DNA of 64,000 nt from Lepidurus packardi (lineage: Eukaryota; Arthropoda; Branchiopoda; Notostraca; Triopsidae): positions 5,130,375-5,194,374 of the forward strand of contig JAKZAN010000002.1 in NCBI GenBank assembly GCA_023053545.1, in the 5' to 3' direction. The notes beneath the pieces are model-generated. The model had not been told where the DNA came from and ran no database searches. It saw nothing but the letters and a program-made list of their open reading frames with translations. This document shows positions 15,297 to 61,278 of this stretch, piece by piece; the stretch's first letter is position 1; every line of letters begins with the position of its first letter. Position numbers and translations under genes: made by a program.

Positions 15297-16636
15297 CTAA
15301 TTTGCTAGAGCAGTCTCTCGACTTCGCACTTTTCTGGCGGCAGGCACGGCTGTAGGTTTTTCTTCTTCTTCTTCTGTAGGCTCTACTCTGTCTTCTGGCA
15401 TTTCCGACGAAGGAGCCTCGGGTAATTGCTCAAGCAGTAGCTCTTCTAGTTCGTTTTCTACAGCACTTTCTTCCTCTGCAGTCGTACAGTTGGATAAGAT
15501 TGCATCGATTTCCTACATTTAAATACATAATTTCCATTAAAATTTGAATTTCTGCACGATGATTCACAATTTTAGTTTCATTTCAAAATGGCTTCTCCTA
15601 GTACCACATGCAGTTCAGCAAAAACCGAACCGAAACGTCATATGCGGCCCCACTGACCTCTGATAGCAACCAAATCAAACCGAACCCAAAACCCAAAGCG
15701 TGGTTTGGGTTCGGCACCAAACCCGACATATTCGAATCACAGAGGAAAGATATATCTTTATGATTCGAAACATTCAAAGTTATTACTATACCAAACTTTT
15801 AATACCCAAATAGCAAACCCAAGATAATGAATCCAAAATTTACTAGCTATTTTTTTAAGAAAATGCTTGTTAGAAAAGAGAAAGACTTACCTGGATTTTA
15901 TCTTTGTATTCTTCAGTTTCCAACAGAATGTCCTGTACATCTTCCACTGAAAATAAGGCGGACAGTTTTTTTAGCGCTAGGTTTCCTTGTTTCAAGTTTT
16001 CAATGACTGTAATTTTGACGCTGGCAAACTCCACTTCATTGATCATGTTTTCAATGTTGTCAAGTTGCCCCGATGTTTGCTGAAAGAGGTCTTCTTGATA
16101 CCTCTTCTTCCGCAAAAGCAGCTTCGCCCGGCTATGTGAAACAATTTCAGTAACAAATTTCGCTCTAATAGAACTACTCACTCTCTTTTGTTTTGCTGCA
16201 GCAATTGGATAGCAACCTGTCTATCCTTTTCTATAACACCAATGATCTTCTTTTGATATTGCTTTAAGGCATCTCGTTGCTGTTTCAATTGCTAAAATAA
16301 TAAATGGAAAAAAAGTTTAGAAGAAGCTGTAGCACCAAAATTTCTCACATCAAATTCTAACTTTCGGAACAATCTGATATTGTGACATTTGAAAACAATC
16401 TAGTATGCTTCACTGAATTTATACATTAAACGTAAAGGTTTTAATACAAATTAAAGTCGTTCCCAAATTTCTCTTGACCAACGGCCTATACCGAGTTAAG
16501 CTAAAAAACGAATGCAAGAATGCAAACCTAAACATGAAACAAGCTTGTCATGACAAACATGATGTTACCTTACCAACAAAACATTGTCTCGCTCATTGAC
16601 GTTAACTTTCCGGCTTTTACTACTAAAGATCCCCAT
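15297..16636 (-). CDS. CHMP6: Charged multivesicular body protein 6 (ESCRT-III, Vps20)
   Basis: ESCRT-III subunit that links ESCRT-II (VPS25) to CHMP4 polymerisation on endosomes, in multivesicular body sorting and cytokinetic abscission. Four exons: 16574-16636, 16182-16291, 15891-16131 and 15297-15512; 209 residues (human 201). MGIFSSKSRK is a canonical N-myristoylation signal. The Snf7 core helices follow: QLKQQRDALKQYQKKI, RAKLLLRKKRYQEDLFQQTS, ASVKITVIENLKQGNLALKK and LFSVEDVQDILLETEEYKDK. The acidic C-terminal part has a MIM2-like segment (QLPEAPSSEMPEDRV) for VPS4 binding. A diverged copy of the start region lies 239 bp upstream of the gene. Confidence 0.93.
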
Positions 16637-16996: not shown

Positions 16997-17684
16997 CTAC
17001 GTGACATATTAGTTCGCGTTTAGGTCTTGTATGCTTCTCTTCGGTCCGAGAGCTAGATTACCTTTTCCAATCATTGCATATGTTTTTATATCTGACAGCC
17101 ACAACCTTGCCCGGTCAACGTTAGCCGATTGTAACCCATCCAACATTCCATTCGTAATTACGATAACCTTAACCTTGGCCCGTAACAATGACTACGCGGC
17201 TTGAACCCGCAGTCTGAGCGGATTGGCCACACTGAAAAATCCTAGACTGCAAACCAAATGGTTAGCGGACATTTGGTTGGTACAAGCTTGTATATTAACA
17301 GAGTGTTATATTAGTTAAAGATATGATTATTTGCTTTATTATATTATAGAAAAATCTGGTCACAATTGAATATCGCATAAAATTAAATAATTAGTCAATG
17401 TCAGTTCTACCGCGACGGTTTCAATTTTCACAATTCGCGGGTCCAGCATGTGATCCACTGTGACGAACTACCACCTAAAACCCAAACAAACGGAATCCGC
17501 CAGAACCGGACTAGCATGTGGCTCAGTTTACGTTTGAAACAAGACTGCTGCAGCTTTCTTTCCCTTTGTTTAGTCTCCAGGATTGAGTTTCAGAGCTAAA
17601 AATTTCTCCAGTAAAACAAACAATTTTCATTCTTTTGTATATTTCTTATTTATTTTAATTTATTTTAGCCTGCTTACACTTAGG
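16637..17684. other. Divergent promoter region between CHMP6 (-) and SWT1 (+)
   Basis: Both genes start outward from here, so it must hold both promoters. It contains the CHMP6 start duplication and two minus-strand GGGTTCAAGC motifs (about 16782 and 17190) that resemble tRNA B boxes without a full tRNA. An acceptor-like TTACACTTAG ends just before the SWT1 ATG, suggesting a 5' UTR intron. Confidence 0.45.
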
Positions 17685-22238: not shown

Positions 22239-22603
22239 TTATCTGCTAATGGAGCTGTCTTGGTAGCGCTCGGGGTGAATGAGTTCCAAGTAGAGGTCCG
22301 ATTGGAGAAACCGCGTATACGCATCGCGTTCCATCAACGCTTGTATCCGACGTTGAGCAAGGTCGAACGCATGTCGATCAATGGCTGAATTTTGCAGATG
22401 GGTCAAAGTCGCCAGTCTGGTATCAGGGTCCAGATTGACTTCTTTGGGAGCTTGCACTGCAATGAAGTCGTTGTAGATTTTCTGGCCTCGGGTCTGCAGC
22501 TTCTGGGGTCGGGACTTTTTGTATTCTTCGCAAGCTAGCCAAAAATCCACGTTCTCGTCGCTGAATTCTCTCTGTAGGAATGCACGGAATAGTGACGATC
22601 CAT
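22239..22603 (-). CDS. RGS locus last exon: RGS box
   Basis: Encodes most of the RGS domain: [79 protein letters not shown], ending SSISR and TAA. Known G-alpha contacts of RGS4 are kept (Glu-Asn of the EN pair, Asn of KEVNLD, Asp and Arg of RDAYTRFL); the Ser after that Asp is Ala. So GAP activity is likely. Closest in type to the RGS3/RGS4 (R4) subfamily. Confidence 0.95.
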
Positions 22604-25600
22604 CTAAGATAAGGAGAAAAAAAAAAGAAAAGATCCAATTAATACGAAAGACTCCGAGTTATTCATGGCAAACAATATAAAGAAGTGAAGGGCAGAAGAT
22701 CTATACTCCAGCAACAACACACTATTTTCTTTTTCTTTTAAGGGAAAGAGTTGGAATCAAATGTCCCGAAGAGCCGAGACCTTCAACTGTCACATCTCTT
22801 ATAAAAGACGGCAAAATAAGCTTTCGCAATACAAGCAAGCTAAGGCCTATTTTCCCAAGAGACCTTGAGAGTTTTAGAAAAGTTTCACAAAGGTCTTATC
22901 TATCGAACTTTTCCTATTACCCGGCAGTGCAATAGGTGGGTGTTTCTCGTACGTCGAATGTAAGAGGAGGTTGAAGCAATCTGACGTACCCTACCTCCCC
23001 CTCCAGTTGCCCATCATGTCAAGTCCGTACGCTACGATATGGAGGTAAACAAGCTATTGCGCCACTCTATACTTCACAACAAGACTCCCACTCAGATAGT
23101 AAAACGTCGTAGTGAGGGGCTTAAGCAATCCGGTTAATAGTAGATGAGGTGCAGCCCAAACTGGCAGGTACGCCTTAGCTTTTCAAACCCAACGACTCTA
23201 AAAACTTCATTACGAAATTCGAACCGAAAGACCCCTCTCATGGTCCAGTATCCAGTATCCCTTAAGCTGAGAGAAACGGTTTATCCAAACTCCATGCTCC
23301 TTGATTTACAATTCTTGTGACACTCGTGATCCCATGAAGAATCCTAAGGGCCAAAGGAGCTTGTTTGGAGCACTAATTAAGAAACAGAACGAGCACTTAA
23401 GCGACATGAAAAGGAGTTAATGCAATTCTACTCTTGGTTCGCGTTCTCGTCCACCTCGTGCTTCCGATGTACACGTACTTCTTATTCCGCTTCCCGTCAC
23501 TGTAAAGAAATTTCCAAAGAACTTGTAACCCTGCCCCTGAGATTAGGCAAGACCTTATGCACTCGTCGTACTCCAGTACATGCACCGGACCCCTTGTAAA
23601 GCTAGCGTGGGCTGTTTCTATACTACGCAACCCGTGTACTTACTATATTAAGCATGACTAGCTATTTCTAGAACTTTCTACACGACGTAGCAGCTTACAT
23701 TTAGCTGAGCCTGAAATGCGTCGTTTGACTGTCAACAACAACCTGTGAACTTGTGTGTTCCCTTTGCTAAATGCCAGGTTGTTTTCCGGTGCAACGTACT
23801 GTAGTGTACTGTGCGACTGACTTGGCGATAACCTAAACTAGATCTCGCTTTTGGGAACATCTTCTCTTACTGGTCGTCACGTTCTCTGTATTTGTTTATG
23901 GAAAAGCCCGGGCTTTTGCAGTTCACTCAGGCGACAAGGAATTGCGCCCTCGCGGTTCACAAAATCAACATTTGCATTCGCATTTCGAACCTCGAGTTAC
24001 TAAGAATAGCTCAGGGCTTTGGTATATCGACGTTAAAGATGCTATTGGCCCCGATCTGTTTTAAGCGGTATATCTTTTCGCTCTTTCGCATAACCCAACA
24101 GGGGATCAGCCAAATCGTGCACCTACTTGACGTCATGACTGACGTCAAAGGCCCTCCACTGGAGAGTTGGGTCCATCGCGGATCATAAACAAGTATTTTC
24201 TTGTCGTCTTTTACGTAAGGATCGGACCTGTATCTTTGACGCTCAATCCGGGGACCGGTTTTCTGGAAGGGCTATCTTGTTCTCTATGACCTTGCCCTTT
24301 GACGATCCCAAATGACGTTCTAAGAAGATAATCAAATGCTGTTACACACCCTTCGTACGGAAGCTCGCTATCAGAAAGCAGCAAAAGCCATTTTTTGGCC
24401 ATTTGAAGCCTTTTGAAGCGTCATAGTTTGGCAGCTGACGTCACCAAGATGCGTTATACCTTTATCTTACATTAGTTTGGTTAATACTGATTCAACCTGT
24501 TTTTTTGGCAATTCTGAATCATGTTTGGCTCCAGCGCGTGACTTAGGTCCCTTCGTTAGTTCGTTAATGGTCTGTTAATGCTGTTGTTGTGGCTTTCGTT
24601 GTCCTGTTTTCACCTATGCAGCTGCAGTCTCAATATGGGAGCACATATGGGATCGGAAGCACATGGCACTGCACGTTGCCTGCTGCTTTTGTTTCACGAA
24701 CCTTCTCTCCAAATTACCGTGCAGAGCATTTTTATTAAAAGGATCTGGGGGATGGTTGCTATAGTAATCTCATGGCTTTTCGCTTTGCTGAATGATTGAC
24801 TGACTGAGCTTCCAGGTACACCTGAATGCTTTTTGACAGCTGTTTCACCTTCCTTGCTCAAACATCATTATCACGCATGGCTTTCTGAAGCTAGTTTTCC
24901 CGGAAGCCTCATTGAGACCCTTACTACTATTTCCTTTAGAGGAGTACAGAAACAAAGTTACAACACGATAACTGCACCTCCATTACTTGAATCGGACGAT
25001 CTAAATGCAGTAATAACAGCTCAGTGTACCCTGTACTGAATCCACGGTTGCCAAACCCTCACCCTATTTGTTACCCACCCATTGTGGTACCCTATTACCT
25101 GCATAGTACTCACTCTATCCTGTACATGTGTTGTGCAACAGCGTAAGTCAATAACCTATTTCTATTTCTCACTTTCTTATGCAAGGCTCCACTTCTCTGA
25201 GTCCCGAGGATCGTAATCGGGGCCTGTTCAAGCTAAAGTGCTGGGTACATGAAAGCACGATCCTTTTTTTCCCCATTACGTAAAGAAATCGAGAATGCTT
25301 TCGAGCAGAACAGAGTAAACAAGCTAAGTAGCTATAGAAGGTAAGTCTTACATTTGGAGGCCATGAGATCCACGAATGATTGCGCCCACTTTGAGGCTTC
25401 TTGAGGCTGGGGCCTAACAGACACCGACAGGTTTTCGGTACTTCGGCGTCGTAGAAATCCCAATCGCGATTTGACTTCCGATCTGCAAAAAGAAAAAATG
25501 AAATTAATAAATGGCAATCCAACAATTATGAAAAAAATTCGGCGTTCCCCAAAACAGGTTTGACCTCAGCTCCAAAAGCTTTTTACTACGACAAAAGACT

Positions 25601-28600
25601 CGCTTCTAACGCTATTGTTAGAGGAAGAATGCTCGCGGATAAATTTGTTTAGTGTGCAGCGTTTAGCGATTAGCAAGAACTGCGGATTGCTATGCCAACG
25701 ACCTCAATTTTTGCTTCAGACTTGCCTACCAACTCCCCAAAAATTATCCGAGTCAATGGCTCAGTCCGCTGCCCTATATTCTCTCTTATTTCCCTGGAGC
25801 CTTTACTAGGTAAAAAGGTTTGTAGTTTGTCTTGCAAAGAAACAGCTTTGCGTCTACTTCGCCAAAAAATGACCCATGCCTGAAGGCGCAACATTGAATT
25901 TGACTTCCCCAAACAGAGACGTAAGAAATTCTCCAACGGTGAAATTTGGACAATGAATTTTGTTGCGTTCTTAGTAGTTCTTAGTTTCGTTTCTTTTTCT
26001 TAGTAGTTCTTAGTTTCGTTCTTAGTTGAAGGCTCAACACTGAATTTGACTTCCCCAAACAGAGACGTAAGAAATGAATTTTGAAAATGACAATGAATTG
26101 ACAATGAATTTTGTTTCGTTCTTAGTAGCCTTGACCAAAAACAGAGACGTTAGAGGCTCCAAGCACTCCAACAATGAATTCTAACAATGAATTTTGTTTT
26201 GTTTTGAGACTGACCGTTTGAAAAACTTGAGGAAGTTGTTGGACTCTGGTTTCCGATTTGCACTGTTTTTAGGTGTCGACGGAGTGGATTTGGATCCGTA
26301 ATTCTTATCCGGAACACGCAATATGATGTTCAAAGATTCCAGCACATTCTTGGTGACTTTTATGGAATCTCGACGCATCTCTGTAGGGTGAATCATGATT
26401 TCACTGTTGGATTTGTGAACTGAAGCTTGGAACTTGTCAAGCTAAAGACTTTCTAAAGCACAGACTTTCAAAGCGTTGTTAGCTATTTAAGAAGGTTAGG
26501 AACTGTGATAAGCTCTGCTTAAGATATCTATAGCTGTCGAGCTAGGTTTGCTGGCTGTGACTGAAACTCATCACTGAACGGGGTCCTGTTATAAAGGAAA
26601 CGTTCGAAACCGCGCGCAGGCGTTTGCCTCCAAGGGACTTTTCCCCGGAGCCACTAGTTGGATTGCTGTAGTCCTGGTACCTTGTTTTTATTTTCTCTTT
26701 TTTGTTCTTGGGAAGGCTTCTTCCTTAGCCAGGGGGTAGTTTGGGTGTTTTAACTTTCTTCCAGGTGAGAACGAGTTTCTACGAAACAGACGGGAAAATC
26801 GGTCCTGGAAAGTTAAAGCGATGCCACCGGATGTTGACACAGCTTTATGGTTAAAGACACTTTGTATTGGAACAGAAACTACGGTAGAGTCCAACTGGAA
26901 TCCCCGTTTGGTTCTCTAGTGACGTTTTTCATAAACCGGACCACTCTTAATTTCCTATTTTTGCAGGTAAGCTTACCTATAAGGGCTAAAGCACCTAAAT
27001 TATAGCTAAGCCAAGGTTTTGTTTCTATCGCTACAAGTTCTTATGCAAGGCACCAAGTACAAAGGTGTATACCAGTACAAAACGAGTCATATGAAATCAA
27101 TGTACACAGCAAATTTCGCTGACGTGGGCGTTTCACAGAACTTAATTTCCATGCTGCTGGTTTTTCAGAAACTAAAGATATTTCGGCTATGACGCGGGCC
27201 ACGGCTATTAAAGCTTCCCATTTGAGCCCCAACAATAACTTTGCTTTCAGAACTTAGAAGAAAACTAAAAACCCCGACCGCCACACCCCGAGATGGTCCA
27301 AGACAGTTCCAAGACACGTCCAAGATGGCTTTTCCATATGTACGCTTTGCGCAATTTACTCAGGATCGGTTCAGGATTTTCGTGACGTGCAGTGAGCACA
27401 TGGACGTACGTGTAGTGCTCATAGTAATGACTACGTATTAGAAAGGACTATTGCAGCATAATCTTGACCATTAGCCTATACTAAACTTACCTACATGTAC
27501 TACCTACATGTACTCATAGTCATTACAATGAGCACATCGACGTACGTTCGGCTACGTATTAGAAAGGATTATTGCGGCAGAACCTTGACCATTAGCCTAT
27601 ACTAAACCTACCTACATGTACTCATAATCATTACTATGAGCACATCGACGTACGTTCGATGTGCTCATAGTAATGACTACGTATTAGAAAGGACTATTGC
27701 GACATAACCTTGACCATTAGCCTAAACTAAACCTACCTACATGTACTGCGCCTTGATCCATGGATTGCCTTACGATACTTGTTTTGTGTGTCTCAGTTTA
27801 GTAAGTACAGTTTACAGCTGTTCAGTAGTCACCATTACCACGGTCAATAGGACAACTTTCCCGTATTTGCATTAGAAAAACTCGGCTAAACCATTGGCAC
27901 CTTCCGAACCTGTTCTAGTGAATTGACGTCAGCGCGGAGTATAAACAGATACTTGTAGCGGAAACTAAGATGTTTTAGGTCCCCCCGGATCACAGCTGTT
28001 TAAGTTTGTATCAACATCCACAATAGCCTACAGTACGTCACTCGGATACTCCGCACGTTAACGCAACACAGCAACAATGAACTCTTTATGGTTCCCGGAA
28101 AAAAACGCGGTTCAAAGCAAACGTATGGTAACAGTGCTACGTCAGTTTTCATTCTTGGGCAAGCTTGTACCAACGCGAGCGTAGAGGGCACACGAGTAGG
28201 CGTGCAAGATGACTTGTTATTAGAAACACAAGTAATGAAACAACGACAATGTGAAACGTGCAGCAGTGTGTTTTTAAAACTGGCCAACTCGAAAAAGCGA
28301 ATCGCCGGAAGTTTGAGTAACCACAACGTGATGTTAATACACGTGCACGAGTTAGAACTCGAAGAATGATTAGAAATTGTATAGCAATATCACGAGATTT
28401 CTTGAGAAAAGCCGTGAAGCCATAAGCTAGAAGGCCTACAATACATTGAAATTGTTCCTTTCATTGTCGACCAGCCTGGCAATGATCAATTGCTAACTAG
28501 CACGTACCCAGCACGTGAAGAAGAAGCCATTGAGTTTCGTTGAACTTTTTCAAAACTTACCCTGTTCCCTGCAGGGTAATCACGGTTCCCAACCTCATTA

Positions 28601-46525: not shown

Positions 46526-46562
<37 letters not shown>

Positions 46563-49500
46563 GGATGGGTTCGTTCAGGTTCCACTCCATGCTGTCAAAA
46601 CGAGGACCGGTTGGGCTAGTAACCGGGTTCAGAACCTGGTAGCACCTATATGCTGATACCAGTTCGTTTAACTGTTTAAACAAAAAAAAAAAAAAAAAAA
46701 TGACGTTGGGAAAAGGGTGTAGGACTCGTCTTGTTTAAGGAGAATAATTAGTTATTCAATGTCACGTACTTGCTGCGAGTAGACAGTACCCAAATTCGAA
46801 CCAATTTGCTCAGGACTCATTAACTCCTTAACGATAGCCTCGCTTAGCATTGCCATCTGCAAGCAATAACGCCATTTCTCAGTATTGGGTTGACAAGTTT
46901 TCCCAAAACGCCCAACATTAAAGTCAATTAAATAATTGAAAAAAAAATAAACTCCAAAAATAAAAACAAAATTCCGAAAATAAAAGAACAGCCAAGAAAA
47001 TCAAGCAAAACAGGGAATAAAAACTTGCCAATTTCAACAAATTATGGTTAATTGGATAAATTTTGAAAACCTTGTCGAAAAGTGCAGCGAGTTCAAGGCT
47101 TAATGGGGAGTCCGAAATGATTTGGGCCAAGGTCAAAGCAAACTTTTGCTCCTCATTAATTATAGCGTGAATGAAACGCTTCCTTTCAGGTACGTCATGA
47201 ACCTAAAAGTTTCCGTCACAAACGATAGTGAGTTACGGTAATTAATACACGAAGTTAAAAATAAAAATTAAAAATAAATAATAGTTTAAAAGGCAATAGG
47301 CATCCAAAATTTGTTAAGGTTAGATGTTAATATTGTAAGTTAATACAGTCCGCTTGAAGTTTACGTTATTCTAAAAATAAAAACTATTTTTTTTTCATTT
47401 TCTAATTATTTTACTTTTTTCTAACTATTATTTCTTACACTAATTAAGCTTAGTTTAATAAATTCAGCCGCAGGTTGGATCATGACGTCAGAACGGGTAC
47501 AGGGTGTGGCCTAGCGTACTTGTTACAATAGTCTCTATTGACATTTCGTATTGAAAAGTCAACAAAGCTGACTGACTCGCCCTCTGACGTCAGAGTCACG
47601 TGTCCCTATATTTTTTTTTTTATTTTTCTTCCATAACTTAGTTATTATTCCGCGTACCATCTAAAGAAAAATATCACTAGAAATTAGATTTTCTAGCTGA
47701 TTTTCTTAAGGTAAAGCAGCTTTCTTCTGACGGTTGCCTTTAATAAATAATAATTAGAATAGATTGTTAAGAACTGCAATACACTAAAGTAAATCGTTTC
47801 GAAAAGCAAAACTTGATCCAAAAAATTCTTGCAATTAATAAGTATAACTATATAGCTAACAAGTAGTAAATATGTAGTTAATAAGTAAACAAAAATAATG
47901 ATTAAATCAGCCATAACTAAAGCATTAATCTCTAAAATCGATCATAGTATGAATCGATCATAGTATCGCGTTGAACTAAATCGATTAGGCCGGGAGTAAC
48001 TTAATAACCAAATAAGCCAGCCCAAATCTTTCTAAAGAGGCTTTTCTAAGGTGAAAATGGGCGTAAGCAGGGTAATAAAGGCGCTTCTATTTAGCTTTAC
48101 AAATTTTAGCTACAGTTGGAATGTACAAAAAGGGTCGGATAGGACAGGACAAGACAAAAGCATTTTTTTACACGAAGGTGCCGCCTCCTATGGCACTACT
48201 GAAAGCGACATGGCCGTTCAATTTACTGGGTGGGTAATGCTTATGCAAATCCTGAGGATCGGCTACAGGCAAGGTAGGGACACTTGGCGTTGGGTTGGAT
48301 TTGCTCATGGATCCTCCCCCCGGGGAACTTGGGTGCTTGGAAGGTGGTGCTACGCCCAAACCGATATCGAGGCATGACAAGGCCTTGAGTGTTTTGACGT
48401 TGGAACTCACGTCTGCAGTATCAATAGCAGTGGGATAGCTATTATGCAAACTAGCAGCAGAAGCATGGGAAAGTGCCGGCTGGAGCTGCTCGCATGACGT
48501 CGAAGTCGGTAGGAATGACGTCATTACGCTGTTCGAAATGGGACTAGGGCTCCCTGCGACAGCAGCCGGGAAGAATGGCATCGATTCAGGGCCGGAATTC
48601 CGTGCCGGAATGACGCTCTTACGGTAAACCTCCAACGTCAGCTGTTGACCCGACGCCCTGCACGCATGAAAAAAAAGAGAAAATTATTGTAACTATGCAT
48701 ACTCACTTCACCTATGACTCTTCCCTTCCCCCATTGAAATCTTTGTTTAAAAAAACTTTTGAAATTCAATGTTCTTTTTTAACTTTCTTTAACTGTTCTT
48801 TTTTAACTTTTGAAATTCACTAGAAACCAAAATAAAAAAAAATAACTTCACTGGTTAAAACTTCCATAATTTAATTTTAAATGTAAATTAAAATTCATTC
48901 TTTGAACTGAAAATTTGACTTTACATTGTAATAATTTGAAGAATTTAACCTCACTTTTGAAATTCACTGATTTAAGAAGGAAACTTTTTAAATTTAATGT
49001 TCTTTTTTAACTTTTGAAATTCACTAGAAACCAAAATAAAAAAAATAACTTCACTGGTTAAAACTTCCATAATTTAAGTTTAAATGTAAATTAAAATTCA
49101 TTCTTTGAACTGAAAATTTGACTTTACATTGTAATAATTCGAAGAATTTAACCTCACTTTTGAAATTCACTGATTTAAGAAAGAAAACTTTTGAAATTCA
49201 CTGATTTAAGAAAAAAACTTTTGAAATTCACTGATTGAAAAACAAAACTTACTGGATGAGCTGGAGAACTTGCTCTTCTTTCATCTTCACCACGTTTTGA
49301 CTTCCCACAAATATAATATAGTCTCCGACCTTCATCCCTGCGTTCTCGGCCGCCATACCGGGCTCAACGCGCTCGATTCTGAACATAAAAAGTTTTTTTT
49401 TTTTTTATTAGTATTATTTTTTTTTTATGAGGACTGGGATCTGAGGTAACGGACAAATCAATGTCAGAGCATTTCCTTTTTTTTATTGTTTTGGCATTCT

Positions 49501-52500
49501 TTTAAAGGACATTACCTGGGAGGATGAGTCCATGCGACAGAGAAGCCATACCCCTGGCTCTGCTTATCTAACGTCATGGTGATGGTGTAAGGTGTCCGGC
49601 CACTGGAGCTGGAACTGGAACGGATCGAGTCGGGGCTGAGCGACGCTTTTGTACCACCTTCCCGTACTCTATGCCCGTGGTTCTCCTCTTCCTCTGGCGA
49701 GTTCTTATGAACGGCCTCTTCGAGGGAGTCGAACGCTATGCCACGCAAGAATGAAAAAAAAGTAAAATTCTTTGTTGAGTGACTTGTAGAGCAGGGGTGG
49801 GTTTCCACTATACCTTCTGAACGGTCGGGTTCCATGCTGGAATGCTTCACTGCAAAATGTCGTTTTCGGCCCACTTTTTCGTTTAACAATCGATACCAGC
49901 CAGTTACATCCTTAAAAGAAGATTCAGAAGATTTTGTTTTACAATGGATGTAAATTTCTTGTGAAGATTCGTGTAAAGATTCAGAAAGCTTTCCCCAACA
50001 ACAAAGCTTAAAAGAGCTCTGGAGTGTTTAAAGTTTGATTTGGAACTGAAAGGACTTGGAAGTTGAGCTAAAAGAAGGAAAAATGGAGCAACGAATTTGT
50101 AAGATTTCCAAGTATAATAGGCTTAGCCAAGTTTCTGGACCGTTCCTCTTGTAAGGATTCCTCCGAGGTATATGACTTGGAAATATAAGGAGGGAAGGAT
50201 TAACTTACTTTTCGAATAACGTGACTAACGCCAAAGGACATACAGCCCAAGAATTCACTCCGACTGTAGAAAAAAGAAAAGAAACAGAAGCCAGAAATGG
50301 TTAAGTTCTAAACCGGTTGTTAGAGTGATTGATTTTTCGAGATTGGTTACTTTCGGTTCACGTCTCGGTTCCATACAGAGACTAATAGTCGTTTATGCAA
50401 ATCCGCCGTAAGAAACTCGAAAGAGAACTTTTGGTCAAACCAAGGATTGTTGTCGCCCTTAACTAGGCTGGTGCGACAAAACGTCCGTTCGTCGTTGTCC
50501 GGAATTAGGGATAACTGCAATTTGAAAAGATTATTTTTTTTAAAGAAATTTGTGAAATTTCTGTAAGAAATTTCTTTCTGCAATTTCTTTAAGATATTCC
50601 TTTTCAATTTCTTTTTATGTTTTGTATATTTCAGAATGGTCTTAGAAAGTTTAAGCTATTTTGGGAAATTTTTCCATTATTTTTCCGAGATTTTTGAATT
50701 CTTCGAAATTTCTTTAAATTTTTAGATTTTCCTCGCCATTTCTAGACATTTCTTTTACAAATTCGCGATTTCGTTCCGAAATTTTCCTCGTACTTCCTTT
50801 GAGTAGTTTCGAATTCTTCAGAATTTCTTTAAATTTCTAAATTTTTCTTGAGTTTTCTACACATTTCTTTCAGAAATTTTCCCAATTTCTTCGAGAAATT
50901 TGGAATCTCGTTTACAAATTACTGAAATTTCTAGTTTTATTTTCAGCTATTTTAGAATTCCTTAAATTTTTTCTTTAAATCTGAAGATTCTTTAAAAAAT
51001 CCAAATTTCTTTTTAAGCATCTCTTATTTCTGGAAGAAATATCTCACTACTTTAAGAAAATACAGAATTTACTCAAGGAAATTTTGCGTAATGTTTTCAA
51101 TTTTTAGAAATTAATTTAGGAAGATTTTCCAAATCTCTCTGAGAAATCTGGGCATTTTCTCGTTCTCAGAAATGTTAGAATCTAGCGTTTAATTACTTTG
51201 ACGTAAGTGTTGCAAGACGATCCTGACGCACCGCGTAATCTCCTTGCAGCCAAAACTGTTGGGGAAAACCAGACCAATTAAGTCTAATTTAATTCACGTA
51301 TTAAAGTTCTAAAATGACGCTAAGTTTCATTATACTATACCATGGATGGTAAGCAGGCCAGAGTTGAGGTACACCGACAGTTGTAGTTGCCCTTTGCCCT
51401 GCAACACTTCCGCGGCTTTCCGTCGCTTAACGGTGCGCTTGGGTAGGGAGCTGTTGTTTCCCACCGAATAGCAAGTTCGCCACGTGCAATTGGATTTCCA
51501 AGAACTGTTGAGACGCCGCGCAGCCTTACGCTGACGAAGTGTGAGTGACCGGCGACTTCTCCGGCTATCATTAGGGGCGTCCCCGCTCGTTAAATTCGAG
51601 TACGACAAACGTGCACGCGAGCGCCGTCCTGATTTGGTCGGAGTGGAGACGTGGTGTCGAGTATGTTTCCAAATGCGGCCACTGGATGGAGCTGAGGACT
51701 TCTTGGACGAGCGGGTCTTTTTGGGCGGCGTGAAACAAAGGCTGTTGTAGACTGGTTGGTTGTGGCTTGGGCCCAAGATATGATTTCGCGACAGCTTCGG
51801 TGTTCTTAGGTACTGCGCCACGTGCGAATTCCAGGTTTCGCAACCGTCGGACATGTAATCGCAGTGCGTGACGTCCATAGAAGACGAGTGTCGGACGTGG
51901 ATCGGGTGGTGGTGGTGCGTCATCGTGTCCGTTTCCGTTTGGGTTTGGGTCTCTTTCGTTTGCGAGACGGTCGCTGGGGCTGAGGGTTGAGCGGTAGCGG
52001 TGCTGTTGTACTGGGCCTGCCATTGAGCCAAGGTGTGGTTGTCGACAAAGAGGAAGGGCTGCAAAGGAATTTTGACGCAGCCACAAAGGGCATGGTGCTG
52101 ATGATGGTTCGGGTGGCTGGGATCGGTGTCACTCCCATTGACAAGAAGCGGCTCGAGTCCCAAGGACATCGGATTGGCATTGTTGTCTTCCAGACCGGCA
52201 TTGGACACCGAATCCCAGTCCCGAATGGTGTCGGATAGCATAGCTTCCATAGACCAGTCGGACATGTCGCCGTACGTATCTTCGGGCAGTTGGCTACGAT
52301 CGTCCAGCATCCGTTGCAACCTCAGTTCGCGTTCTTGCAAACTAGAAGACCTCCTGGAACTGCTGGAGGACCGGCGCAGCGAAGAATGTGCTACCGTTTC
52401 CGGTAAAACCGGGTGTCGTCTTTCAGTTCCTTCCGACTGTCCTCTTAACCTAGGTGAGGGCTTGTTACCTGGCTCCTTAGAGGCGTTAACGGCCAAAAAG

Positions 52501-55500
52501 GCGCTGCCAGAACTAGAGTTTAACGGCGCGGACTCGAAGTCACCCGAGTTCCGGCAACTCACAAACCGACGGTGGCTCATTGCACTCTGGAAACGCGACG
52601 CGAGGGCGGGAGGATCAGGCTCTGTACTGGCGAGATACACGTTCTCATACGAAGGAGATAAAACGTGAACTGCGGTTTTGCCTACAGCCGAAGGGTCGCG
52701 TTCTGCGAAGGAAGAATTGATGGAGCAGAACGCGTCTTGGCGCAACGCAGGGGTCATACTCACGTCTTCCAGGTACCAGTCAGGGTACGCGTTGTTGTCC
52801 GGCGGTTGAATCGCCTGGAATCGGCCCGAATTAGAGGACAACGAGCGGTCACGGTAATGCGACGACGTAGCCACGCTCTTTTGCGCACGAGGAAGGGTGT
52901 TGGATTGTGGTTGGCAGATGATCGCTCGCATTTCTTCATAAAGATCGGTGTCCTCGTCTTCCTCTTCTTCAGCGTTCCCTCGTGGGATCGCTGGGTGGAA
53001 GAGAGATTTCATGAGCACGGGACTGGCGCTGATTGAAGGACTGATGTTTCGACCCGGTAGAGCTAGTTCGGCTACTCCACTGTCTTGCGTGTCGCTGCTA
53101 GAAGAGTTCGCTAGGGAATTTGCGTCCCCGTGCTGGAAACGGTGGACCGACGGCCAGACCGGAGGCTGACGGTTCGGCGAATCGTAGACGGGACTGTTAG
53201 AGGCTGAACGCTTGCTAGAAAGTTCATCGTTTTGAACCGTTCGCGGTTTCCAGAAATCCATAGCTTCATCCGCCGGTCGGGAAGACGCTAATAACACGGG
53301 AGCGATCTCCGTGTCTTCTAGGTTGACGTAAGAAGGCTGCCAGTCGTGACCGTCGGGTGATTTGCGGTTTTTGTTGGGAGACGGAAGGCTCTCCTTAATC
53401 TCATGGTTACTACAACTACAACTACTACTATTACAATTAGCATTGTTGGTTATCGGCGGAAGTGGAGACGCGTGGGAATCTAGGTTAACTGCCGAAACCA
53501 CGAGAGGTTTAGGTTCACTGTCGGGTAGTTCCATGTCGAGTTCATCCAAGGCGCACAAACCGCGACGGCTACAGGGAACGTTGAGGAACATGCTGCTTTT
53601 GCTGTTGTTGTTATGGTTGATTCCAGACTCCGCCACCGGCGACGGGACGCTGGAACTAGACTTGGCGGCCATGGACACGTTGTCCTCCTGGTCCGTCTCA
53701 AAGACGACAGGCAAGCGATGGTCTGACATCACTGAACGAACGGTTTTCTTATTAGCATTGGTGGGAGGCTGCGGCGGTCGTAGGTGGAAGACACTGGAGG
53801 AGGTTTTTAAGGGCCGCGAGTCGTAATTGATGTGCACGTGTTGTCCCGTGGAGGTATGACACGTCTTCTTGACAGGTGAGGCATTGAAATGGAAGCCCAG
53901 CGGTGGTAAGGGTCGTGATTCCCCGGATCCGGAATGCAGACTAGAGAATTCGCCCCGGTGGCCCATCAAGGCAGGCACCAAGGTCTTGTTGCTGGACGCC
54001 GACGCTGGCAGGGTCGTGGTTGGATACGGGACGCTGCTGTGCTCTTGCTGCGTTGGCGGGTCGGTTTTCTCCTGGCCATTCCGAGGTTCGCACACGTCGG
54101 GAGGGAGGTGAGGTGAGGGAGGGACAGGCTCCGGGGTTTGGTTGTGCGATGAGTTGGCCGGCGAAGGGGGTTTGACTGGTAATGGTTTGTGCAAGTCCAC
54201 TGGGGGCAAATTGGTAAACGAGGCTAGCCACGAGCACTGCGACGCGGAGCGTTGATGACTCTGATGGACCTCCTCCGCATTCGGCACCTGCTGCTGTAAG
54301 CGGATTTCGCCCAGCATTTGCTGCAAATCGGCAATTTCCTCGAAATCGCCCGCGTGTTTACTGGAATAACTGTACTGGCTAATGTCCACCTCGGCTAATG
54401 TGGTCGTCTGACCGTCTTGACTATCATCGTCGGTGAATTGGCTCATTTCCTGGTGCAAATCCGCGATCATTTGCTGGTAGCCAGGTGGCAAGGCATTGTT
54501 GCTGATGTCCTGCAGCACCCTGCGGGAACGGACGGCAACAGGAATGTGTTCCAAGCGCATGTATAAGCTGCTGTTATCGCTGTCGTTGGATAGAATGTCC
54601 TGCAAGCTGTAGATGGACTTGTGGACCATGGCTGGCGGTCGTTTCTTCCGCGAATGGCGACGACTGTGACGATTGCTGTCCAAACGACTCTTGAGCTTGG
54701 TCAGGAATCCGGCGTCGTGATGGTTGAGGTCATTCGGGGCTTTAGGGGACGGCTTGGGACGTAATTCCTGTTGACTTTGACGCAAAGTGGTCATTTTGCG
54801 GACCGTAGCTTCGCGGACCACGCCTTCGCCACTGTTGAGGGACATGGACGACGAGGAGCACGAGGCGGTGATCAGTTGCCGAGGGAGCACGGGCGGCGAG
54901 GATTCAATTTCCGAGGGGACAACCGCAGACTTCTTGGGCGGGAGAGGGGGCGAGGTTGAGGCAGTCGAGGTATTGTTGCTGTGGGACGAGGACGGGGATC
55001 GACCTTTGCTCGATTTGCTGTCGCGGCGTCGTAAAAACCGGGCCGAGGCTTTCTTGAGGTCCAAAAAACTCGTACGGGACGAAGACTCCCCGGAGTTCTT
55101 AGATCCAATGGCCCATTTCAACATGGCGCTGGGCCGATCTCCTACCACGCAAGTGCAAATTGAGAATTTGTAAGCAAAATGCCAATTTGTAAGCAAAAGT
55201 GAAAACTTTATAAACATGTTTTTCAAACGCGTAGAAGTAACTATCCTGTCCAAGATAAAAAAAACGAATCTACAGTTTCGCATAAGGTCGGGCAGTAACG
55301 CAACAATGAATAATATAACAGTAACTGAACTTTACATGACTCGCCATAGTGATTTCAGCCTCTCTTTCCAGGGGAGCAAAAACGCAATAATGAAAAATAA
55401 ACAGTAAACCGACCGAATGGTGCTCCCGACCCCGGATTTGTAGCACTTCTTCGGCTTGTGTCTTATTTCTCTTGTTTCGTGAACGGGCTAGTCCAATTCC

Positions 55501-58500: not shown

Positions 58501-61278
58501 TAATCTATGAAACTAATAAATCAATTCTAAAAATTCTAAAAATAAAAAAGAATTAATTTCAGAAAATAATGTTATTTTTTATAGAACTAAGAAATTTTAA
58601 ATTAATCAATGAATATTTTTTTTAATACACTAATCATTCATTTCTAAAAAGTAATAGGATTTTTCTATAAATTAAGAAAGGGTACAATATTTTTTTTTCT
58701 TTTTAACATTTAAAGAAAGGAGTTAGCTGCTGAGGATGTGGTAGACAGTGGAGACGACGGTTACGGTTGAACCAGGCATGGATAGTGAAAGCTGGGAGAT
58801 CAATCTCGATTTCCATATGCAAACGAGCCTTTTTTCCAGTGTATACAGTAACGATATAAATGGGTATCTGCTATATGGCAAAGGAATAGAAGCAGTCCCT
58901 GCAAACTGGCCTTGGCTTTTTTGAATCTGACTTGTGGCGAAAAACCCCGCCATTTTGTTCTTTCTTTGCTTGGATTTGATTTCCATTGCGTACTTTTGCA
59001 GATTTCTCTAGAATGTGCCCAAACAAATAAATAAAGCAAATTCTAAAAATACAAAATATTTTTTTACGATTTTTTAGTACATTTAAATAATTATTAATTA
59101 ATTTTAAAATTACATATTAATTTAAAAAATCAAAAAGGAAGAAGATATGTAGTTTTGAGGTTTAATTCTCGAACTATTTTGTCCGAGAAGCACGAGAGAA
59201 GATGCTTTCCCACGCTCTCCTAAACACCCTTCGGATTGGCAACTGTAAATACAACCCAATAGCACTCGAAACTCGAGTAAAGAAAGCTGCGCGAAACACC
59301 CACCCACCCTCTCTCCGGATGTATTGAGACACCGCACTTGACGTGATGACAGGGTAGTCTTCAGGGGGTTCAGGCCCCGCCAATGTGTAAATCCTTCGGC
59401 GACGAAATTTGACAACCAATAGTTCCCATATGTTCCTCTCTTCAAGTTTTTCCTTTTCTTGTTAAAAACTCCGTGAAAAGAGCTCTCCAGTTCAAGATCA
59501 AGCCTGTACTAATCTGAGGAATGCGTTCTTTCAATTGGATTGAAAGAATCCGTGGCGAGTGACTTGGGTAACACGTCTGACACCATCAAAGCGTCCAAAA
59601 AATCGTGCGGGAATGTCATTCACCACTGGGGAGGGATTCTCCGAGGATCGTCAGGATTATCCGAGCAATGGGAGTAAAAAACGTTCGCCTAGCACGCAAG
59701 TCCACATGGCAGTTTGTTTCAAACCTTTTACCACCCCCGAAACGTCTCAGCTTGCAGGGTAGAACTGAGTTGCGACCGATGTATGCACAAGAAAATTGAT
59801 GTTTTAAGGATCCCCGGTTATTTTTTCATTTGCGACTTCACTTAAACGACTGTATACTCGTAGGTCCATGTAATGTAGTGTGTTTGAATTGGCTTGGAGG
59901 AGTCTGCGCGCCGCACTACACTACTAAAGACTCACTTGTGCATCTTAGACCCCCGCTTTCGGCACTGAGCCACTGGAACAAGAATGCATACGCTACACTC
60001 GGGTCTCCCGGCTCTGGGTCCATGAGGTTTCAGGGGGGTGGGATGGAGCGTCTAGTAAAAGTGTATGTGTATATCTATATTCCCTTTAAGATATTCGGAA
60101 AGAAAGGTAGAGGAGACCCAGAATGCCCATCGGCAATACAACCAAGGGTGTAGAGGAGTAGAGGAATGCTTTTAGGCAGACCAACCTCCAAGCTTTGGGC
60201 CCCTCGATGGGTGAAGATGAGAGAGAAAGGAAGAGGTGGACCCCGGCAAGCCGGGAACTGACCAGAACCAACGTGAATAGCACGAGATGGCTGCTTAGAA
60301 GTCTGCTGTTTTACCTGACCAAGCGTTTTTGAAACGGGAAGGTGGAGGGCAGAAAGACAAGAGAGGAGAGAGATGAGATTGAATCTCTTCCGATTCCGAC
60401 CTCTTGACATGGACACAACCGTGAACGGCAAACGAAGCTGAAAGTTGAAGAAGACAAGGGATACGAGGTTCTAAAGCTTGGATTTGGGGTAAACAAGTTC
60501 GTTAGTCTGGAGAAGAACGTCCTTTGGGGTTGTGTGGCTCGCGCCCCGGTTTAGTCTTTGATCTCACTTCATTAACATGGAAATCGAACATGGGCGATTG
60601 GGCATGCTGGGCATTTCGAGTCAGCCAGAAGGTCAGGTACAGAACTTAGTGGGGAGACTTTCTGCTTTCTGGTCTAACTCAAGGGACAAGACGGATTACC
60701 AGCGTTAAACTTGTGTTAGAAGGGGTTGCGGGTGGAGGTTGAGGTTGCGGTGCCACGTTGGGACTACGTTGAAGCTTTGGGCCTGACCTCCAGGCGGCGT
60801 AGAAAGCGAGACGCGAGATGCAACTGTAAACGGAATGGGACTGGTTAGAACAGTAGAAAGTGAGGTCTTGTTTGCCTAACCTAAACGGCATTGGAATGCG
60901 TTAATCACTAATCAGTGGGTTCTTGTGTCGGAGCAGACTCGAGATTATAGTCTATCGATGAGACTGAAGAGAAAGGAGAAGCTACTACCAGCTATCGTGT
61001 TCTGTCGAAGCTTAGAAGAAGAGGCGGCCAGGTTTACCCGAGGGGATCAATGACGTGGATGGGTCATCCTGGGGAACGTAAAAGTTACCTTTATGTGGTC
61101 GTTTGTCCAACTGTTCTTTACCTGATGGAGCTGTCGGCTTGTCCGCGAGTAAGGTTTTATCATCTGAGCAATCCAAATCGGGGATTGAACCCGAAGGAGA
61201 CGACGACACTACACGCGGCTTGCATTGCAAGAACAAAAACTTGAATCGACTTTTCCACGTGGTAGGCATGACTCCCAT
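22239..61278 (-). CDS. Long RGS3-like protein with C2, PDZ, DH, PH and RGS domains (whole locus)
   Basis: Signalling scaffold predicted to act at the membrane: a C-terminal RGS box that speeds GTP hydrolysis by Gi/Gq-type alpha subunits, and an internal RhoGEF-like DH-PH pair. The 27-exon path (transcript order, minus) is 61122-61278, 51341-55141, 51197-51255, 50351-50514, 50209-50263, 49814-49910, 49516-49735, 49253-49378, 48174-48657, 47071-47202, 46770-46856, 46561-46671, 46371-46466, 45820-45945, 45614-45695, 45404-45506, 45148-45186, 43066-43990, 40299-40679, 32310-32397, 32131-32199, 31924-32057, 31707-31860, 30526-30719, 29181-29263, 25352-25482 and 22239-22603. All phases fit; about 2820 residues. 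The weakest joint is 43066 to 40679: an acceptor at 40696 looks better but is out of phase, so a small exon may be missing. The first exon is also tentative; translation could begin at MLKWAIG (55124). Confidence 0.8.
22604..25351. other. RGS locus intron between the two RGS-box exons
   Basis: 2.7 kb. No exon, RNA gene or complete element seen. CTTTCTTATGCAAGGC at about 25170 matches part of the repeat family at 37451-37786. Confidence 0.5.
25352..25482 (-). CDS. RGS locus exon: start of the RGS box, shared by all isoforms
   Basis: Reads [20 protein letters not shown] then [17 protein letters not shown], the lead-in helix and first helix of R4-type RGS boxes. It accepts phase-2 upstream exons, and three candidates end in that phase (29181-29263, 26755-26894, 26215-26396). 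Confidence 0.93.
26215..26396 (-). CDS. Alternative first exon for a short RGS isoform
   Basis: Begins ATG at 26396 ([20 protein letters not shown]), ends FLKFFKR at a GTCAGT donor in phase 2. It joins the shared exon at 25482 to give a 225-residue protein, the size of a simple R4 RGS. The N-terminus is basic and amphipathic, as R4 N-termini that bind membranes are. No acceptor is needed: a TATA-like element lies 200 bp upstream. Exonic status is inferred from frame, donor, phase and family logic. Confidence 0.65.
26568..26597 (-). promoter_or_regulatory. TATA-like element and initiator for the short RGS isoform
   Basis: Minus strand CCTTTATAAC (26588-26597) followed by GTTCAGTGA (about 26572-26579), an arthropod-type TCAGT initiator. 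The TATA-to-initiator spacing (about 20 bp) is shorter than the usual 30, so the true start may be a little downstream. Confidence 0.4.
26755..26894 (-). CDS. Candidate further alternative exon of the RGS locus
   Basis: Acceptor GGATTCCAG, 140 bp, donor GTTAAA; phase 0 in, phase 2 out, so it could also feed the shared exon at 25482. It reads [17 protein letters not shown] and [19 protein letters not shown], basic like the other alternative N-terminus. No ATG is present, so it needs an upstream exon that I could not find. Confidence 0.4.
27431..27760. repeat. Three tandem copies of a 121-125 bp unit with an internal palindrome
   Basis: CTACGTATTAGAAAGGA(C/T)TATTG recurs at 27431, 27552 and 27677, each followed by CTTGACCATTAGCCTA. 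Copies 2 and 3 are joined by ATGAGCACATCGACGTACG and its inverse, a palindrome of about 32 bp at 27635-27668. Confidence 0.85.
28654..28996 (+). CDS. Possible small nested gene on the opposite strand of an RGS intron
   Basis: Unrecognised. Exon 1 28654-28719 ([20 protein letters not shown], donor GTACGTAAGT region, cut before GTAAGT) joins in phase 0 to 28799 (acceptor CGGTTTCAG, branch-like CTGACTTAAT). Exon 2 reads [20 protein letters not shown] and [15 protein letters not shown]. Either it stops at TGA 28994-28996 (87 residues) or it splices again at GTAAAG (28920). The [11 protein letters not shown] helix faintly recalls a motif next to DDT/WAKZ regions of chromatin factors; I would not rely on that. 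Splice signals on this strand are good and the composition looks coding. Confidence 0.4.
29181..29263 (-). CDS. RGS locus exon (linker ahead of the RGS box)
   Basis: Acceptor TTTTTGCAG, donor GTAAGT. Reads [20 protein letters not shown] then EAKWRRG. Phase 0 in, phase 2 out, joining 30526 to 25482 without adjustment. Confidence 0.75.
29466..29528. repeat. Three 21-bp tandem units each carrying ACGTGACC
   Basis: TAATCCACGTGACCAATCGGG, with two variants, starts at 29466, 29487 and 29508, an exact 21-bp period (two DNA turns). The first unit is a full CACGTG E-box; the others read TACGTG. Confidence 0.8.
30526..30719 (-). CDS. RGS locus linker exon
   Basis: Acceptor TTTTCTCTAG, donor GTAAGT. 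Reads [20 protein letters not shown] and [19 protein letters not shown]. Low complexity and basic, no known domain. Phase 1 in, phase 0 out. Confidence 0.75.
31707..32397 (-). CDS. RGS locus linker, four short exons
   Basis: Exons 32310-32397, 32131-32199, 31924-32057 and 31707-31860, with consistent phases 0/1/1/0/1. They encode [58 protein letters not shown] and [20 protein letters not shown]: Ser/Pro-rich linker with likely phosphorylation sites and no fold I recognise. For the last exon the acceptor after TTGAATAG keeps phase; a second AG 11 bp later does not. Confidence 0.7.
34131..34641. repeat. Diverged tandem duplication, offset about 340 bp
   Basis: CTGGAACGAATG, ATCTAGAA(C/T), AAGTTTAGCTATAGTTAAC and GAGCTGAAGACGAGCCCCCT occur in the same order in about 34131-34305 and 34474-34641. 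Confidence 0.7.
35786..36345. repeat. Diverged duplication, offset about 340 bp
   Basis: Shared blocks in order include CGTCGCTAAAGC, CAGGCAGGGATATG-like, GAGTGTTTCCTTTCAA(A/G)GAGC and ACATGATTACTGCAAGACAC, with GAACAATGAATTCCAGC also doubled inside the first copy. Confidence 0.7.
37451..37786. mobile_element. Two tandem 168-bp copies of the element family also seen at 424-593
   Basis: Units 37451-37618 and 37619-37786 are over 90 percent alike by eye. Each ends AGCTACGGTATACGGGCACC and contains AACAAA(C/T)ATCAGCGCCATCTG, matching the collagen-intron MITE in inverse orientation. The other half, TAGCTACAAGTTTCTTATGC, recurs alone near 27035. They lie in an RGS intron and are non-coding. Confidence 0.75.
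40299..40679 (-). CDS. RGS locus linker exon
   Basis: Reads [20 protein letters not shown] and [19 protein letters not shown], ending NPQ at a GTAAAT donor (phase 0). Thr/Ser-rich. The better acceptor TTTTATAG would start the exon at 40695 in phase 2, which does not fit the preceding exon; AGCAG at 40680 keeps phase. One small upstream exon may be missing. Confidence 0.6.
40696..43065. other. RGS locus intron
   Basis: 2.4 kb. Holds three tandem copies (about 41164, 41272, 41381) of a 110-bp unit beginning ATTCACTGTTGCTCC(C)TCAATTG. A minus-strand reading frame at about 40926-41042 ([18 protein letters not shown]) has a possible donor but no matching acceptor, so it is not called. Confidence 0.5.
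43066..43990 (-). CDS. RGS locus linker exon (925 bp)
   Basis: Acceptor CGAATAACAG, donor GTAGTT. Encodes 308 residues such as [60 protein letters not shown] and [18 protein letters not shown]. Pro/Ser-rich with an acidic stretch; no known domain. It directly follows the PH-domain exons. Confidence 0.8.
44750..45069. mobile_element. 320-bp inverted-repeat element in an RGS intron
   Basis: Long imperfect terminal inverted repeats: left ACGACTCGACATAAGGA then CCCGACAGAAGGACGC, right the inverse (CGTCCTTTTGTCGAGTCGT). The similarity runs about 90 bp inward through CCATAATCTTGTAA and TTTCGAGTTTAAAA. It is non-coding, so a foldback or MITE-like element. No target duplication was found. Confidence 0.7.
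45148..45945 (-). CDS. RGS locus exons: PH domain
   Basis: Exons 45820-45945, 45614-45695, 45404-45506 and 45148-45186. They encode [64 protein letters not shown] and [15 protein letters not shown]. This is the strand order and final helix of a PH domain as found after DH domains (GEL...R...LFTDMLLLT). Phases 0/0/1/2/2. Confidence 0.8.
46371..47202 (-). CDS. RGS locus exons: diverged DH (RhoGEF) domain
   Basis: Exons 47071-47202, 46770-46856, 46561-46671 and 46371-46466, all phase 0. CR1-like [20 protein letters not shown], then [11 protein letters not shown]2-like [38 protein letters not shown]; and the CR3 signature [19 protein letters not shown] identity rests on the order of helices, the PIQ-x3-KL-x2-ML pattern and the PH domain directly behind. 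Conservation is weak in CR1, so exchange activity is uncertain. Confidence 0.7.
46518..46700. repeat. Homopolymer T and A tracts flanking one DH exon
   Basis: About 31 T at 46528-46558 and about 19 A at 46682-46700, on either side of the 111-bp exon 46561-46671. The T tract begins 2 bp past that exon's donor (minus-strand GTAAAA). Confidence 0.9.
48174..48657 (-). CDS. RGS locus exon between PDZ and DH
   Basis: Acceptor TGCGTGCAG. The first residues finish the PDZ domain (LTLEVYRKS). The rest is Ser/Pro linker ([36 protein letters not shown]). It ends at a GTGTAA donor in phase 0; without splicing, TAA follows one codon later, so a truncated C2-PDZ isoform ending here is also possible. Confidence 0.8.
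48794..49184. repeat. Tandem duplication in an RGS intron, unit about 205 bp
   Basis: 48794-48978 and 48999-49184 are close copies (TGTTCTTTTTTAACTTTTGA, CACTAGAAACCAAAATAA, CATTGTAATAATT(T/C)GAAG, CACTGATTTAAG). Very few differences by eye, so recent. The terminal motif CTTTTGAAATTCACTGATT is further repeated at 49187-49235. Confidence 0.85.
49253..49910 (-). CDS. RGS locus exons: end of C2 and PDZ domain
   Basis: Exons 49814-49910 ([15 protein letters not shown], the end of the C2 region), 49516-49735 and 49253-49378. [20 protein letters not shown] with GYGF as the carboxylate-binding loop, then [38 protein letters not shown]. Acceptors and donors are good and phases 1, 2 and 2 agree. The acidic stretch [13 protein letters not shown] precedes the PDZ. 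Confidence 0.92.
50209..51255 (-). CDS. RGS locus exons: C2 domain
   Basis: Exons 51197-51255, 50351-50514 and 50209-50263, preceded by the last 30 codons of the large exon ([16 protein letters not shown]). They encode [64 protein letters not shown] and [16 protein letters not shown]. This is the C2 domain of the RGS3 type (GLLTIHV, NP.F...[12 protein letters not shown]). The classical pairs of calcium-binding Asp are not all present. The intron 50515-51196 is a long run of degenerate GAAATTTCTT-like repeats. Confidence 0.93.
51341..55141 (-). CDS. RGS locus large exon: 1260-residue disordered N-terminal region
   Basis: One uninterrupted reading frame of 3.8 kb. It starts after acceptor GTGGTAG (55142) in phase 1 and ends at GTATAG (51340). 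The likely internal start is [20 protein letters not shown] at 55124. Composition is Ser-, Pro-, Asn- and His-rich with poly-Ser runs, basic patches ([13 protein letters not shown]), PXXP stretches ([20 protein letters not shown]) and acidic runs ([16 protein letters not shown]). Short conserved-looking helices occur, for example [20 protein letters not shown] and [20 protein letters not shown]. No globular domain was seen until the C2 begins at its end. It is GC-richer than the flanking introns, as long coding exons in this window are. Confidence 0.9.
55142..61121. other. First large intron / upstream region of the RGS locus
   Basis: 6 kb without a confident exon. AT-rich tracts at 57770-58060, 58490-58720 and 59040-59135; C10A14 run at 56058; TTTA microsatellite at 56325-56345. 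A 19-bp minus-strand segment at 56398-56416 has both a good acceptor and a GTAAGA donor. If MLKWAIG at 55124 is used, a promoter should lie near here, but none is obvious. Confidence 0.5.
61122..61278 (-). CDS. Candidate first coding exon of the long RGS isoform
   Basis: ATG at 61278 opens [20 protein letters not shown] and runs through [16 protein letters not shown] to KPTAPSG, with a GTAAAG donor in phase 1. That phase matches the acceptor of the large exon at 55142, which then reads [11 protein letters not shown] second donor, GTAACT after 61089, is also phase 1 and would add 11 residues. Basic-aromatic N-terminus with one Cys. Linkage over 6 kb is inferred only from phase. Confidence 0.5.

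Follow-up and report, generated by a model that had tools for sequence, protein, structure and literature searches.

A Candidate Gene Combining C2, PDZ, DH-like, PH, and RGS Domains and Its Probable Kinship with RGS3 and PsGEF

Introduction

Vertebrate RGS3 contains C2, PDZ, and RGS domains in that order, and to our knowledge its usual description in humans includes neither a DH nor a PH domain. In ARHGEF1, ARHGEF11, and ARHGEF12, an RGS-like domain of a type other than R4 precedes the DH and PH domains. The question addressed here is whether a locus within a 64,000-nucleotide stretch of DNA, hereafter referred to as the window, encodes both kinds of architecture in one polypeptide, and, if so, how it is related to the known families. 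The assembly from which the window is taken totals 108.6 Mb in 344 contigs. A sequence-only reading of the locus had proposed that a single protein carries C2, PDZ, DH, PH, and RGS domains, and had compared it with RGS3 and with the RGS-RhoGEFs.

That comparison stands in need of one addition: a protein with C2, PDZ, and RhoGEF domains and no RGS domain, unmentioned in the sequence-only reading, has already been published as PsGEF. PsGEF combines the three domains in one polypeptide in insects (CG14045 in Drosophila) and a limpet, and none was detected in sea anemone, deuterostomes, or nematodes; the similarity between its C2-PDZ part and RGS3 is significant (Higuchi et al. 2009, PMC2684095). 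In Daphnia (scaffold 53), the C2-PDZ gene was described as lacking RhoGEF exons and as adjacent to a predicted gene for a PH-like domain. The authors' scenario is that RhoGEF exons were gained by an RGS3-like gene in protostomes (PMC2684095).

Gene model

From the raw reading frames and splice sites, a chain of 22 exons can be assembled on the minus strand from 61278 to 22239. All of the exon phases are compatible, and the resulting chain of 2,676 residues contains a single stop, which is positioned at its end. The exons, all on the minus strand, are as follows.

E1, 61122..61278, minus: candidate first coding exon (ATG); open reading frame, GTAAAG donor, phase 1 out
E2, 51341..55141, minus: long exon of low complexity at the N terminus, with the first C2 strand at its end; open over 3801 bases
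E3, 51197..51255, minus: C2; Pfam C2 match on the spliced piece and match to the human RGS3 C2 domain (3fbk)
E4, 50351..50514, minus: C2; Pfam C2 and 3fbk matches
E5, 50209..50263, minus: C2; Pfam C2 and 3fbk matches
E6, 49814..49910, minus: end of C2; Pfam C2 and 3fbk matches
E7, 49516..49735, minus: linker and first half of PDZ (GYGF); Pfam PDZ
E8, 49253..49378, minus: PDZ; Pfam PDZ
E9, 48174..48657, minus: end of PDZ and Ser/Pro-rich linker; Pfam PDZ
E10, 47029..47202, minus: DH-like, containing the first conserved block with its Glu retained; donor GCAAGT of a GC-AG intron; profile fit, coding score negative
E11, 46770..46856, minus: DH-like; end-to-end profile fit
E12, 46561..46671, minus: DH-like up to NEPIQ; end-to-end profile fit
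E13, 46371..46466, minus: DH-like, a 12-letter protein stretch and the last helix, weak acceptor; profile fit
E14, 45820..45945, minus: first part of PH; PF22697 on the PH piece
E15, 45614..45695, minus: PH; PF22697
E16, 45404..45506, minus: PH with C-terminal helix; PF22697
E17, 45148..45209, minus: short exon after PH with uncertain boundaries; phase-compatible only
E18, 43066..43988, minus: linker exon, open for ~307 codons; coding score best of its six frames
E19, 40299..40679, minus: linker exon; phase 0 donor CAG/GTAAAT
E20, 26215..26441, minus: pre-RGS exon (NFLKFFKR); joined by phase, coding score best of its six frames
E21, 25352..25482, minus: start of RGS (a 14-letter protein stretch); RGS similarity, blastp match to RGS3
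E22, 22239..22603, minus: RGS box and stop codon; Pfam RGS on the spliced piece

The splice sites were picked by hand and eye, guided in part by the expected domains and by the boundaries of the sequence-only reading. The strand, coordinates, and domain order given in that reading are reproduced by the rebuilt model: positions 61278, 48174, 47202, 46371, 45945, 45148, 25352, and 22239 are all exon ends, that at 45148 in E17 having been adopted from it. Alternative ends were observed at 45211 for E17 and at 43253 for E18. The splices located inside the C2, PDZ, PH, and RGS domains are supported by the respective domain matches, which cross them.

Two features of the introns may be noted. The intron following E10 is of the GC-AG type (TTG/GCAAGT at 47029/47028, minus strand). 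Within the part of the gene that encodes PDZ, the E8-E9 intron contains two direct 171-base copies that are 94% alike, together with shorter repeats (48825-49198).

The C2, PDZ, PH, and RGS domains

When searched as separate pieces, four domains exceed their curated Pfam cut-offs in the order of the chain, namely C2 (1e-15), PDZ (2.4e-12), PH (PF22697, 1.2e-6), and RGS (1.3e-34). The PH domain scores 29.1 bits against PF22697 in the PH piece alone, above the cut-off of 27.7, and 26.5 bits within the longer DH-PH piece, under that cut-off; scores for PF00169 and PF16652 with the PH piece lie just at their cut-offs. The C2, PDZ, PH, and RGS domains of the sequence-only reading are confirmed, as is their order.

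The closest solved structure to the C2 domain is that of human RGS3 (3fbk, 1.1e-25), followed by that of PKC gamma (6.1e-20). In the alignment with PKC gamma, most of the aspartates at what we take to be the calcium-ligand positions are replaced, and calcium control of this domain is therefore doubtful. With few ligands kept, the C2 domain is probably calcium-independent.

The RGS box is of the R4 type by similarity, with RGS2, RGS3, and RGS8 as its best solved matches. It is the best RGS match in the genome among the matches listed (9.5e-31), and seven other RGS fragments, all partial and drawn from the ten other matches listed, score below it against RGS3. No close second copy of either the C2-PDZ part or the DH-PH part was found in the genome, where the other matches are weak and confined to single domains.

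The DH-like region

The region encoded by E10 to E13 is less readily classified. The Pfam RhoGEF family (PF00621) gave no match at E ≤ 10. Likewise, hhalign against an alignment of 11 DH sequences returned a probability of 0.36%, and 48 of 200 shuffled sequences scored as high. A phmmer search against solved structures yielded seven sequences at E ≤ 10, one of which (4dam) is unrelated; the best, intersectin at 0.016, was matched by way of the PH stretch, and the DH stretch lies in register with it at only 3.4 bits.

A different result was obtained when the segment was fitted end to end to the 11-sequence DH profile. Its score of -28.1 was reached by none of 1000 shuffles (mean -69.8, sd 8.0, maximum -33.6) and by none of 600 natural decoy windows taken from 83 six-frame E. 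coli open reading frames, the best of which scored -44.1. Read in reverse, the segment scored -66.8; among 31 windows from the same chain, the runner-up reached -65.9. Note that the hand-made choice of exons can tilt this fit somewhat in its favor. The 11 true DH domains, each left out in turn, scored from +77 to +226, all above the segment in the window, and two further DH examples gave +109.6 (L013) and, for a truncated one (L030), -23.9.

In the end-to-end alignment the segment is short by approximately 15 residues at two places, each within a single exon. The conserved DH blocks occur in order directly before the PH domain, whose family, PF22697, is named for SOS1/NGEF. The first-block glutamate and the third-block lysine align, the arginine of the PxQR motif is replaced by histidine, and the final asparagine is absent. 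In DH domains, the first-block glutamate, a basic residue in the third block, and the final asparagine are catalytic. The segment looks like a shortened, divergent DH domain, at best a degenerate one, and is perhaps inactive. That the gene joins G-alpha inactivation to Rho-type exchange, as had been suggested, is consequently unproven, given the shortened segment and these two altered positions.

It is also conceivable that the locus is one gene in which E10 to E13 encode a helical linker that merely resembles a DH domain. This we regard as unlikely. The silence of PF00621, the hhalign outcome, and the reported absence of RhoGEF exons in Daphnia (PMC2684095) all speak for such a linker, but the end-to-end fit surpasses every shuffle and every natural decoy tried, and the conserved blocks fall in sequence just ahead of a PH domain of this family. 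The DH assignment made in the sequence-only reading finds support in the end-to-end fit and none in Pfam or hhalign.

The connection between the PH and RGS domains

The link from the PH domain to the RGS box rests on E17 to E20. Codon bias was scored after training on E2, which has the highest score of all exons but is itself the training set. With a background drawn from the same gap as 12 control open reading frames, E18 and E19 scored 0.24 and 0.25 versus a maximum of 0.017 for those controls. In the E19 stretch, another frame scored 0.287, above the in-frame 0.25. The score of E17 is clearly negative (-0.49), and that of E20 is about zero. Across the chain, 12 of the 22 exons, counting the training exon, score higher in frame than in any of their five other frames.

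E19 and E20 are separated by 13.9 kb (40299-26441), and the minus strand of this interval contains the AATAAA motif 16 times. Of the 12 open reading frames of at least 100 amino acids in this gap, 10 were scanned with Pfam; none passed a cut-off, and two weak matches below the cut-offs were observed. Another gene lying between E19 and E20 was rejected as an explanation on the basis of these scans. Searches for tRNA genes (with a bacterial-code search) and for Rfam families at the gathering score gave none in the window.

Could the locus instead comprise two adjacent genes on the same strand? The first would be PsGEF-like (C2-PDZ-DH-like-PH) and end within or beyond E18 or E19, and the second would be a short RGS gene of the R4 type whose start lies in E20 or ahead of it. 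The length of the gap and its AATAAA motifs would accommodate such a boundary, as would the Met codons and near-zero coding score of E20, the better-scoring alternative frame in E19, and the reported absence of an RGS domain from PsGEF (PMC2684095). On the other hand, E18 scores as coding in frame, E18, E19, and E20 join in phase, the scanned frames in the gap passed no Pfam cut-off, and C2, PDZ, and RGS reside in one protein in vertebrate RGS3 (PMC2684095). The provisional human sequence discussed below, moreover, has a PH domain between PDZ and RGS. Taken together, these considerations make two genes quite improbable. A single polypeptide for all five modules, as originally proposed, is partly supported: the exon phases agree with it throughout, and the coding bias does so in part.

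Comparison with vertebrate RGS3 and the RGS-RhoGEFs

The human RGS3 sequence used for comparison is a provisional one, of which PDB entries confirm only the C2 and PDZ stretches; it is referred to here as the provisional RGS3. By blastp, the chain aligns colinearly with it in the C2-PDZ part (5e-32), the PH region (0.07), and the RGS part (4e-43), the last alignment starting in E20. In the RGS box, 76 of 150 aligned residues are identical. The two proteins share an RGS3-type C2 domain, for which 3fbk is the best match, a PDZ domain following it, and, if the chain is one polypeptide, an R4 RGS box. They also appear to share a PH domain: the segment of the provisional RGS3 between PDZ and RGS scores 28.8 bits against PF22697, above the 27.7 cut-off. 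The direct match between the PH domain of the window and the corresponding segment of the provisional RGS3 is weak (22.7% over 44 residues, with 2 of 1000 shuffles as high), and so the argument for a PH domain in RGS3 rests on the shared family and the shared position. No report of a PH domain in RGS3 was encountered in the open-licence literature searched, and this hit of the provisional segment, at the matching place, to the PH family of the window would appear to be new. The gene in the window differs from RGS3 in having the DH-like region before the PH domain and a long N-terminal region.

With ARHGEF1, ARHGEF11, and ARHGEF12, the gene shares an RGS fold, a PDZ domain (in ARHGEF11 and ARHGEF12), and DH-PH in one protein. 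Here, in contrast, an R4 RGS box comes after the PH domain, from which it is separated by approximately 20 kb of gene and 560 residues. Membership in the RGS-RhoGEFs is ruled out by the domain order and the RGS type.

Comparison with PsGEF

Likeness to PsGEF was judged by its published description (PMC2684095). Both have C2 and PDZ domains, identified here by Pfam, and the RhoGEF domain of PsGEF may have its counterpart in the segment picked out by the end-to-end fit, which PF00621 does not match. PsGEF is published without an RGS domain, whereas the gene in the window, if it encodes one polypeptide, has one, and its DH domain appears degenerate. The C2-PDZ-RhoGEF combination is already known (PMC2684095); what is new is the apparent occurrence of the PsGEF and RGS3 architectures in one gene. 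A C2-PDZ-DH-PH-RGS protein was not reported in the open-licence literature searched, in which excerpts of PMC3484668 and PMC2954821 contain nothing on RGS3 or on an RGS domain with PsGEF; predicted proteins of this kind may have been deposited unremarked.

The Daphnia region, compared by description, is similar in having a C2-PDZ gene, a PH-like neighbor, and no recognized RhoGEF exons; it is different in that these were published as separate genes, with an RGS domain unmentioned in the excerpts of PMC2684095. This arrangement is as would be expected if Daphnia has a gene of the type in the window with an unrecognized DH domain. Should the window come from a branchiopod crustacean, as seems likely, with a tadpole shrimp as a tentative candidate, its gene could explain the Daphnia observations.

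Origin of the architecture and possible function

We consider it probable that the gene is the arthropod form of one family spanning vertebrate RGS3 and the PsGEF of insects and mollusks, a five-module scaffold with a decaying DH domain and one close copy in this genome. Its ancestor may have had the order C2-PDZ-DH-PH-RGS, with the RGS domain subsequently lost in insects, the DH domain lost and the PH domain kept in vertebrates, and all five kept in the lineage of the window, the DH domain in decay. Between retention of an ancestral form and a gain of DH-PH, the two routes left open by the sequence-only reading, the former is favored, with one amendment: since the PDZ-to-RGS segment of the provisional RGS3 passes the PF22697 cut-off, as does the PH domain of the window, the loss in vertebrates seems to have been confined to the DH domain rather than to have taken all of DH-PH. 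We lean slightly towards the stronger statement that RGS3 and PsGEF represent a single gene, descended from a bilaterian C2-PDZ-DH-PH-RGS ancestor, and that human RGS3 is a former RhoGEF.

An alternative is a lineage-specific fusion, in which exon shuffling brought DH-PH into a gene of the RGS3 type; it is in line with the view published for PsGEF by Higuchi et al. (PMC2684095). The PF22697 match at the same place in the provisional human RGS3, if correct and not the product of two gains, means that the module predates the split between protostomes and vertebrates, and such a fusion accordingly seems very unlikely.

The encoded protein may function as a large scaffold built of C2, PDZ, DH-like, PH, and R4-type RGS modules. 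Its C2, PDZ, and PH domains would hold it at the membrane and at receptor complexes, where the RGS box would speed GTP hydrolysis on G-alpha subunits of the i/q type. The shrunken DH-like domain may lack exchange activity and might instead act as a helical companion to the PH domain or offer a docking site for Rho-family proteins.

If RGS3 and PsGEF are indeed the same gene, two families studied apart would be merged, RGS3 with its control of G-alpha and PsGEF with its control of Rac and mushroom-body wiring. The name "Protostome-specific GEF" would be a misnomer, the PH-like neighbor in Daphnia would be part of the same gene, and the published scenario of RhoGEF exon gain by PsGEF in protostomes would be overturned. 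Human RGS3 would also contain an overlooked PH domain, testable for binding to lipids or to Rho-family proteins.

Other features of the window and the genome

The next gene downstream, on the opposite strand and pointing toward the RGS gene from the side of its 3' end, contains exons for WW and PIN domains (17574-18786, plus strand) and is perhaps an SWT1-like RNase. Farther along, all on the minus strand, are a Snf7-type open reading frame (15873-16220, 3.1e-16), a family 10 fucosyltransferase in one open frame of 413 amino acids (10385-11623, 1.5e-60), two open reading frames of the amiloride-sensitive sodium channel family (8391-9553, Pfam ASC 4e-25 and 4.2e-18), and a collagen-repeat open reading frame (552-983, 1.3e-7).

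Six large contigs dominate the assembly, five of 10.7 to 14.0 Mb and C5 of at least 12.4 Mb, which suggests six chromosomes. RhoGEF matches on contigs C273, C192, and C321 lie in frames with TAG and TAA and without TGA, suggesting ciliate-like contaminants, and contigs C52, C43, and C214 look bacterial. The large nuclear contigs C1, C2, C4, C5, and C6 carry many COX1 fragments with internal TGA codons, indicating that mitochondrial inserts are abundant. One long insert (C6:692000-701999) indicates an arthropod: its genes run ND2-COX1-COX2-ATP6-COX3-ND3, the order of the arthropod ground plan, and the solved structure closest to its ND2 is 8b9z, the fruit-fly complex.
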